DNA of 5,602 nucleotides, taken from the NCBI GenBank assembly GCA_011055275.1, contig DSEZ01000017.1, forward strand, positions 1 through 5,602, written 5' to 3'. This DNA comes from Thermoprotei archaeon. GTDB taxonomy: Archaea; Thermoproteota; Thermoprotei_A; Marsarchaeales; UBA168. This document shows, piece after piece, positions 612 to 1,291 of this stretch (position 1 is its first letter; the number at the start of each line of letters is the position of its first letter). Below the pieces are notes generated by a model that did not search any database, was not told the DNA's origin, and saw only the letters and a program-made list of their open reading frames with translations. Position numbers and translations under genes: made by a program.

Positions 612-950
612 ATGAAGTCGGAGAAACGCTTCGTTTACGTGTTTCTTATAGACGATATGCTGGTATCTGTTTCCTTTAGAGGTAAGCTTGTATCGAACGC
701 GGACGCCAAGAGGTCAAGAGACTGGGCTGCCGTGACTGCTCTATCCACTTTTGGTGACGCGTCGTACATATTGCTCGTTGGGCCGCCTCCCTATCCTTCA
801 TGGCCCAAAAAAGAGATTCACGGCAGCTCGACCCTGTCCCTTCCTATCGGTTGCAGCGAGGAGTTTCGCGATCACTTTCAAGAAAGCCAAGGAGTTGCGA
901 CCCTTTTTCTTAAGCTGGCTCTAGAACTAAGTGGACTGGGCGGGGTTTGA
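612..950 (+). CDS. Unidentified small protein, convergent with tRNA-Ala
   Basis: I do not recognise this 112-residue ORF. It begins with ATG at 612; the in-frame upstream stop is at 573, and no earlier ATG exists. Composition looks protein-like: a hydrophobic strand near the N-terminus (residues 7-14), a second strand around VSVSF, a helix-like stretch, a strand ILLVG (53-57) followed by a proline-rich PPPYPSWP turn, and a hydrophobic C-terminal helix ending in GLGGV. This suggests a small alpha/beta protein; there is no signal peptide or clear membrane segment. Codon choice (AGG, AGA and ATA present) resembles the neighbouring genes. No good Shine-Dalgarno is seen; a weak TAAAA element at 583-587 lies about 27 nt upstream and would fit a leaderless message. 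The last six codons and the stop are antisense to the 3' end of the tRNA gene, so either the C-terminus is real and overlaps the tRNA, or the ORF is chance. Confidence 0.5.
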   Translation: MKSEKRFVYVFLIDDMLVSVSFRGKLVSNADAKRSRDWAAVTALSTFGDASYILLVGPPPYPSWPKKEIHGSSTLSLPIGCSEEFRDHFQESQGVATLFLKLALELSGLGGV

Positions 951-1023
951 ACCCGCGACCTCTCGGATGCGAACCGAGCGCTCTCTGGCCGCTATGCGGT
1001 CTTCCAGGCTGAGCTACCAGCCC
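932..1023 (-). tRNA. tRNA-Ala(CGC) with an intron in the D-arm
   Basis: The reverse strand folds as a full cloverleaf after removal of 18 nt. The acceptor stem is GGGCTGG/CCAGTCC, including the G3-U70 wobble that defines alanine tRNA. The D-stem is GCTC/GAGC with loop AGCCTGGAA (A14, G18-G19, A21). The anticodon stem is CTCGG/CCGAG with loop TTCGCAT, giving anticodon CGC at 969-971, which reads GCG. The variable loop is AGGTC, and the T-arm is GCGGG-TTCAAAC-CCCGC. G15 and C48 can form the Levitt pair. The discriminator base is A73 (position 932), and CCA is not encoded, so it would be added post-transcriptionally. Mature length is 74 nt before CCA. No TATA box lies directly upstream; the nearest good one is at 1178-1188, so the tRNA is probably co-transcribed with the structured leader at 1024-1158. 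Confidence 0.93.
983..1000 (-). other. 18-nt tRNA intron in the D-arm
   Basis: An extra 18 nt interrupts the tRNA between the D-loop and the 3' side of the D-stem (about position 22/23; repeated bases allow 20/21 to 23/24 with the same product). In the precursor, exon CTGG pairs with CCAG at the intron 3' end as a 4-bp helix. Next to it is a 4-nt AAGA bulge, then an inner CCGC-ATA-GCGG hairpin. The 3' junction lies in AGA after CCAG. This resembles a relaxed bulge-helix-bulge, the substrate of the archaeal tRNA splicing endonuclease. Cutting AG|A in both bulges restores CTGGAAGAGCG, a normal D-arm. Splicing is inferred, not shown. Confidence 0.82.
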
Positions 1024-1158
1024 ACAGTGAACTGCTCCGCCCTTACGGGCGCAGCTTCCCGCTTCCTTCGGCAGGGCTCGCAACCGCAACGGCTGCGCTC
1101 GCCTTACCGTCCGCGGGCATCTCGCCTGCGTTCCACAGGCAAAGCCCTATTGGGCAAC
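1024..1158 (-). ncRNA. Candidate structured ncRNA, co-transcribed leader of tRNA-Ala
   Basis: About 135 nt between a strong TATA box and the tRNA 5' end, roughly two-thirds G+C and richer than the flanking genes. On the reverse strand it forms five consecutive hairpins. (1) GCCC-AATA-GGGC, 1155-1144. (2) GCCTGT-GGAAC-GCAGGC, 1140-1124. (3) A 9-bp stem with one bulged G, made of CCGC plus GACGG against CCGTT plus GCGG, 1116-1084, with a 14-nt loop. (4) CCTGC/GCGGG, 1075-1058. (5) A two-part stem AGCTGC-GCCC-GTAA-GGGC with a GGA bulge and closing GCAGTT, 1056-1030, capped by a GNRA loop. RNase P cleavage at the tRNA 5' end would leave its 3' end at 1024. I see no RNase P RNA core motifs, 5S rRNA pattern, SRP helix 8, C/D boxes or H/ACA signature, so the function is unknown. 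A coding role is unlikely. It could instead be only an unusually structured tRNA leader. Confidence 0.6.
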
Positions 1159-1177
1159 ATATCTGTTTTTCGCATAG

Positions 1178-1188
1178 CTTATAAATTT
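1178..1188 (-). promoter_or_regulatory. Archaeal TATA box for the ncRNA-tRNA transcript
   Basis: The reverse strand reads AAATTTATAAG, close to the ideal archaeal box A, preceded by a purine-containing BRE-like stretch (GAC). The expected transcription start, about 23-27 nt downstream, falls at G1158 or G1155, just before the first hairpin. No comparable box lies nearer to the tRNA. Confidence 0.75.
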
Positions 1189-1291
1189 GTCGCGTTTCTT
1201 TGAGGACCTCTGTATCGTTTAAAGTTTAATGCCAGTCATCTGCCGCTTTGGTAACGGCCGCAATCTGAAACGAGCATCCCATTAAACGACC
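1189..1291. other. Intergenic stretch, no gene seen
   Basis: Between the NAD kinase stop and the ncRNA promoter. It holds an AT-rich TTTAAAGTTTAA at 1218-1229, possibly a second promoter element, but I see no convincing ORF, hairpin terminator or long T-run on either strand. Confidence 0.5.

Follow-up and report, generated by a model that had tools for sequence, protein, structure and literature searches.

What is the G+C-rich, apparently structured stretch of about 135 nt that separates a TATA-like box from a tRNA gene in the genome of this Thermoprotei archaeon, and does it represent a new kind of archaeal RNA? A preliminary description, made from the letters of the window alone (the window being the whole 5,602-nucleotide stretch of DNA that was analysed), had proposed an undescribed structured RNA fused upstream to the tRNA.

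A strongly folded stretch adjoins a tRNA-Ala gene

On the minus strand, 1024-1158 is 66% G+C, compared with 51% for the whole window, which bears out the earlier estimate of about two-thirds. Its predicted fold reaches -72 kcal/mol against a shuffle mean of -55.4 (z -4.06; 1 of 200 shuffles was as stable), and the stretch stops one base before the tRNA gene. The strong fold and the adjoining tRNA end were thus as described, but where five consecutive hairpins had been said to end exactly at the tRNA, the prediction gives four stem-loops with six helices and leaves the last nine bases unpaired. The features are as follows:

1144-1155, minus strand: predicted stem-loop
1121-1143, minus strand: predicted stem-loop
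1058-1117, minus strand: long arm of three helices in the predicted fold
1033-1055, minus strand: 3' stem-loop in the predicted fold, assigned below to an omegaRNA scaffold
931-1023, minus strand: tRNA-Ala(CGC) gene with a 17-nt D-loop intron at 985-1001 (ARAGORN gives Ser(aga) unspliced and Ala(cgc) spliced)

The ARAGORN call of tRNA-Ser(AGA) for 931-1023 was discarded because removal of the 17-nt D-loop intron yields tRNA-Ala(CGC). By eye, the intron resembles a bulge-helix-bulge substrate. The congeners G001 and G002 also have this tRNA, interrupted at the same position by an insert of similar length; the 3' end of the G002 copy reads N, and ARAGORN misses the intron-bearing tRNA-Ala in both (L039, L040). 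Neighbours of the tRNA in the window include genes for NAD kinase and a phosphoribosyltransferase. A 112-aa frame at 612-950 on the plus strand has no Pfam match, and its 3' end runs into the 3' end of the tRNA.

An Rfam search over 1024-1158 at E up to 5 returned zero family matches, RNase P, SRP and sotRNA families included, in agreement with the earlier remark that no known RNA motif was visible. Archaeal SRP RNA was found nowhere in this incomplete genome, and 1024-1158 likewise gave no score as SRP RNA. The RNase P RNA of the genome sits elsewhere, on contig C32 (G000:C32; L041 1-197, minus strand), where it is cut by the contig end.

The stretch matches the right end of an IS200/IS605 element

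In IS200/IS605 transposons, the region on the side of the right end (RE) encodes the guide RNA of TnpB, for which the names omegaRNA, reRNA and sotRNA are in use. Judged by sequence homology, such a transposon has left its RE and the 3' tail of its tnpB gene at 1027-1145 (minus strand):

1027-1071, minus strand: RE of an IS200/IS605 element, with the conserved GGAAGCGGGAAGC, a 3' hairpin and a terminal UUCAC (covariance model R2)
1032-1145, minus strand: tnpB tail, 38 codons in the TnpB frame and no longer coding (frame shared with a second copy of the element, on contig C27)

The covariance model R2, built from 27 other REs with the window excluded, recovered 1027-1071 at 54.1 bits with an E-value of 6.7e-11 (E-values from this tool are rough), and its next best place within the window scored 8.2 bits. 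By this match, the right end of the window element is intact. The 27 REs in the underlying alignment (A1) were picked from search hits; neither the window nor the C27 copy was admitted, and duplicates, hits that looked like chance, a further RE-like hit in L095 and some finds made by BLAST only (in L090, L092 and L096) were also left aside. The G001 copy of the element seen in the window is among the rows, as L034. RNAalifold on an earlier model, R1, produced only 3 pairs, and R1 was of no use; R2 was built on an eight-pair helix written by hand. This helix, the homologue of the 3' stem-loop at 1033-1055, is kept in 92.4% of the cells across the 27 REs and in at most 57.8% when slid. Its covariation score was reached by 0 of 500 shuffles, its number of double-change pairs by 28 of 500 and its number of pair types by 89 of 500, all three figures being inflated by related rows.

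In related genomes, the 3' part of the element comes after TnpB genes. In at least 10 of the 27 rows, the RE comes behind a TnpB C-terminal domain that can be recognised (nine by motif, L079 by Pfam), and in L036 and L038 the TnpB domains are followed by GAAGCAGGAAGC, a hairpin, and TAGTTCAC or TAGCTCAC. Because of this homology to right ends behind TnpB genes, the word "undescribed" could not be kept: the RNA is the RE/omegaRNA portion of a tnpB element of the IS200/IS605 type. What the fold, the RE model match and the kept pairing described below do support is an RNA with structure that is joined to the tRNA on its upstream side. That it is an undescribed host RNA belonging with the tRNA, as originally proposed, would suit the strong fold and the empty Rfam search, but the RE model match and the TnpB-linked relatives speak against this, as does the leaderless state of the tRNA in G001 and G002, and we regard it as exceedingly improbable. 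In particular, a new host RNA conserved as a partner of this tRNA is ruled out by the same two congeners.

Translated in the TnpB frame, the C27 copy gives TLPVERRRDARGRQGRRSRCGCEPCRMKREAPSVRAG* with the end MKREAPSVRAG*, like the end MKQEAPSVRAG* of the TnpB in L036. A tail reading GLCLWNAGEMPADG..., in the frame of the decayed copy L079, was rejected, the true frame being the one with the MKREAPSVRAG* end in C27. The same frame in the window is interrupted by one stop, at 1104-1106, and lacks the usual terminator at 1032-1034, and substitutions between the copies show no excess at third codon positions. These three observations rule out a coding region, as had been surmised from the letters alone.

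Pairing is kept between copies of the element

A search with window positions 931-1190 across 41 genomes detected two further copies: one in the own genome (G000:C27:1073-1201), which aligns without gaps over 129 nt at 87%, and one in a congener (G001:C26), at 71%. The search also matched the tRNA and the 3' part of the element elsewhere. When 1024-1158 was searched against DNA of the whole class, 12 of 197 genomes matched, the eight outside the order doing so in the 3' third only.

The window and C27 copies differ at 17 of 129 positions. These differences break 1 of the 43 pairs in the window fold, against 6.4 (sd 1.8) under random placement (fraction 0.0014), and 2 of the 43 pairs in the C27 fold, against 6.2 expected (fraction 0.0094), the folds being predicted from the same sequences that are compared. 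On the antisense strand, there was no such constraint, with 4 of 37 and 6 of 40 pairs broken (fractions 0.25 and 0.61). This shows that pairing in the predicted sense-strand folds is kept between the two own-genome copies; a constraint that predated the stranding of the copies would leave the same signal. The preliminary description had suggested aligning relatives and looking for compensatory changes. The alignment did bring out conservation and kept pairing, but the conservation is between transposon copies elsewhere, and across the three copies double changes were no commoner than in shuffles (196/500).

The element lies between the tRNA and its probable original promoter

The architecture of related elements was compared with that of the window copy. 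In G007:C29, the order is left end, a 412-aa TnpB and RE, and in G009:C7 it is left end, Y1 transposase, TnpB in two frames and RE. Mini-elements of IS200/IS605 (MITEs) include the PATEs, and the C27, G001:C26 and G003:C19 copies are of this type, having a left end and an RE with no TnpB frame. The window copy, in contrast, has no intact left end: BLAST gave no match to it, and a MAFFT alignment places at most a few bases of the 3' arm of the left end there, weakly. Among 12 left ends of related elements, 10 come after TTTAA, one after GTTAA and one with TTTAG, TTTAA being the motif published for Sulfolobus islandicus (PMC10640517). In G003:C23, left-end-like and RE matches almost touch (L094 1972-2030; L095 2004-2066), which suggests mini-elements of <100 nt. 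Upstream of the structured stretch, the window contains:

1178-1185, minus strand: TATA-like box TTTATAAG, aligned by MAFFT with the putative tnpB promoter of related elements
1201-1207, minus strand: GTCCTCA, possibly the last bases of the left end (weak; from alignment only)
1218-1223, minus strand: TTTAAA, probable original promoter box of the tRNA (the same box lies 20 nt before the tRNA in G002)

Both G001 and G002 carry the tRNA without the element in front. In G002, the TTTAAA box stands 20 nt before the tRNA, and ACAGATCTAATAT directly precedes GGGC. The window flank is common to G002 through TTTAAACGATACAGA, with small indels, after which the element follows, and the G002 flank is shared on both sides. 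We placed this boundary by eye; when G002 and the window were aligned globally, the insertion came out in the wrong position. G001 is also leaderless at the tRNA, but its flank differs, and G003 gave only weaker tRNA matches (68-70%).

The window thus keeps TTTAAA at 1218-1223, and the element with its own TATA-like box is placed between this box and the tRNA. The TATA box that had been thought to serve the tRNA is indeed present as a TATA-like sequence, but it aligns with the element's own promoter region. The insertion might matter mainly because it donated a promoter, with the tRNA now read from the element's box and the scaffold made only incidentally: of the two boxes, the original one stands 194 nt and that of the element 154 nt before the tRNA, and the latter is clearer in the window copy than in the C27 and G001 copies. 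However, both boxes are still upstream and either may work, and the arrangement is found in one genome only; we consider such a donation very unlikely.

In our view, the stretch is probably a stranded IS200/IS605 piece without tnpB, located between tRNA-Ala(CGC) and the tRNA's probable original promoter, and predicted to form a tRNA leader that RNase P likely cuts. An internal deletion may once have brought the omegaRNA part next to the tnpB promoter, and the resulting mini-element would have landed directly in front of the tRNA, at a motif resembling TTTAA (the G002 empty site has TCTAA). Later loss of the left end would mean that the element is no longer self-mobile. This insertion route is not proven, the left-end remnant being weak and TCTAA one base off TTTAA. 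Both boxes stand upstream, so transcription from either one would be predicted to yield a tRNA preceded by the scaffold. RNase P cleaves at tRNA 5' ends, and cleavage at this one would leave the scaffold with three guide bases, so that the RNA would be disarmed. The earlier suggestion of a stable RNA released by RNase P during tRNA processing is a fair one, RNase P RNA being present in the genome, but the product would not be a new kind of RNA. Ordinary archaeal tRNA leaders would likewise be removed by RNase P; unlike them, the leader here is a transposon piece of ~135 nt and strongly structured.

The predicted RNA belongs to a published kind of TnpB guide RNA

Guide RNAs composed of the tnpB end and the RE have been published for many orthologs, and a 3' stem-loop at most 10 nt from the guide start is a trait of omegaRNAs (PMC10278001). 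The corresponding parts of the window are:

1027-1158, minus strand: predicted omegaRNA scaffold (1024-1158 folds with z -4.06; the C27 copy matches at 87% over 129 nt; pairing kept between copies)
1027-1031, minus strand: UUCAC, the conserved end, after which the guide begins in S. islandicus (sequence; PMC11043419)
1007-1026, minus strand: would-be 20-nt guide directly after UUCAC, consisting of three bases and the first 17 of the tRNA

Within 1027-1158, the 3' end of tnpB is joined to the transposon RE, UUCAC precedes the guide, and the predicted 3' stem ends at 1033, within 10 nt of the would-be guide start at 1026. The stretch 1024-1158 is an orphan member of a published kind of TnpB guide RNA, and only its orphan, tRNA-fused setting is unusual.

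The closest known systems are the SisTnpB1 omegaRNA and the TnpB7 reRNA of S. islandicus. Like the window element, they have an RE that ends in UUCAC, hairpins near the 3' end and a tnpB tail of ~113 nt in the scaffold, and they share with relatives of the window element the TTTAA that precedes the left end (PMC10640517, PMC11043419). The window element differs in that tnpB is missing in cis, the left end is not intact, the frame is broken and the flank that would serve as guide is a tRNA gene. The ISDra2 reRNA of Deinococcus radiodurans is ~150 nt from the tnpB 3' end and the RE plus ~16 nt of flank, but it differs from the RNA in the window in its sequence, in its TAM (TTGAT) and in having a TnpB that is present and active (PMC8612924). 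Haloarchaeal IS1341-type sotRNAs/omegaRNAs (RF02656, RF02657) are also archaeal RNAs from a tnpB 3' end; they overlap an existing tnpB (PMC12558985), and the window, unlike them, has no Rfam match at E up to 5. An apparently unknown archaeal RNA is hereby identified, and an orphan transposon guide RNA can evidently pose as a tRNA leader and be missed by Rfam.

A would-be guide from the tRNA and the search for a TnpB partner

We further asked what such an RNA would target and which TnpB could use it. In S. islandicus, the guide is the sequence right after UUCAC (PMC11043419). By this published rule, the RNA in the window would take its guide from the 5' part of the tRNA itself. Of the 20 positions of this would-be guide, TGTGGGCTGGTAGCTCAGCC, 19 agree with the G002 site, next to which stands TCTAA, one base off the TTTAA that is the target motif (TAM) of elements of this kind. 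In the own genome (78% complete), GGGCNGGTAGCTCAGNC occurs only here, and no self-target was seen.

The TnpB C-terminal domain gave seven matches in the own genome, five of them over the family cut-off. When all seven places were translated, the one on C110 was not TnpB-like by eye, and each of the other six was a contig-end piece or carried stops. No intact TnpB was therefore found in this genome, which is 78% complete and in which contig-end pieces may be intact genes broken by assembly; a working TnpB may exist. The C93 copy (G000:C93; L079 2654-3439, minus strand) is a TnpB relic with changed residues at two RuvC motif places, reading GIGLGVKD and VVFRADN compared with GIDLGVEK and IYVEDLD in the open TnpB of G007:C29, and has one internal stop. 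The own genome also contains a 141-aa Y1 transposase frame, on C147.

Because no intact TnpB was found in the genome, the stretch is most likely a transcribed relic. It could instead be a working stand-alone omegaRNA gene with its own promoter, in which a TnpB supplied in trans would use the 5' part of the tRNA as a guide to empty tRNA-Ala sites (TnpB homing). The kept scaffold pairing and the kept TATA-like box agree with this, as do the 19/20 match to the G002 empty site beside TCTAA and the guide pattern that occurs nowhere else in the own genome. The tnpB tail, counted from 1145, is 114 nt, close to what is needed in S. islandicus TnpB7, where cutting the coding-derived part to <113 nt strongly reduced activity (PMC11043419); that the mini-element would start about where the published scaffold starts is suggestive, but not proof. 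Two points speak against a stand-alone gene: the search of the own genome yielded no intact TnpB, and use of the guide would have to compete with folding of the tRNA and with cutting by RNase P. We judge it unlikely.

Should the stranded piece indeed be transcribed ahead of the tRNA, this locus offers a natural experiment on whether an omegaRNA can lose its guide to RNase P cleavage. In a bolder version, which we hold to be quite unlikely, the tRNA body occupies the guide position of the omegaRNA, and either RNase P disarms the RNA or, before cleavage, the RNA with its tRNA-aimed guide loads onto a TnpB supplied in trans. Were this true, tRNA processing would act as a switch on an RNA-guided nuclease.

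Right ends next to tRNA genes

Finally, we determined how often such elements adjoin tRNAs. The order contains 81 RE matches, and in the 60 flanks that were fetched 0 abut a tRNA, a count that tRNAs similar to the intron-bearing tRNA-Ala missed by ARAGORN in L039 and L040 could escape. In 1 of the 60 (L155, G005:C20:8862-9156), a tRNA-Thr starts 27 nt after the RE, and a T-arm pattern search of the flanks again pointed only to this place. Four more REs were read directly (window, C27, C93 and G001:C26), and only that of the window abuts a tRNA. In the literature covered, with subscription papers mostly outside it, we recognised no report of a tRNA-fused TnpB guide RNA.

Across the end of another TnpB frame and the RE belonging to it (L037 1440-1515, minus strand), the Rfam family HgcC gave a sub-threshold match of 33.4 bits (gathering threshold 50). 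The HgcC family may itself be a TnpB omegaRNA.
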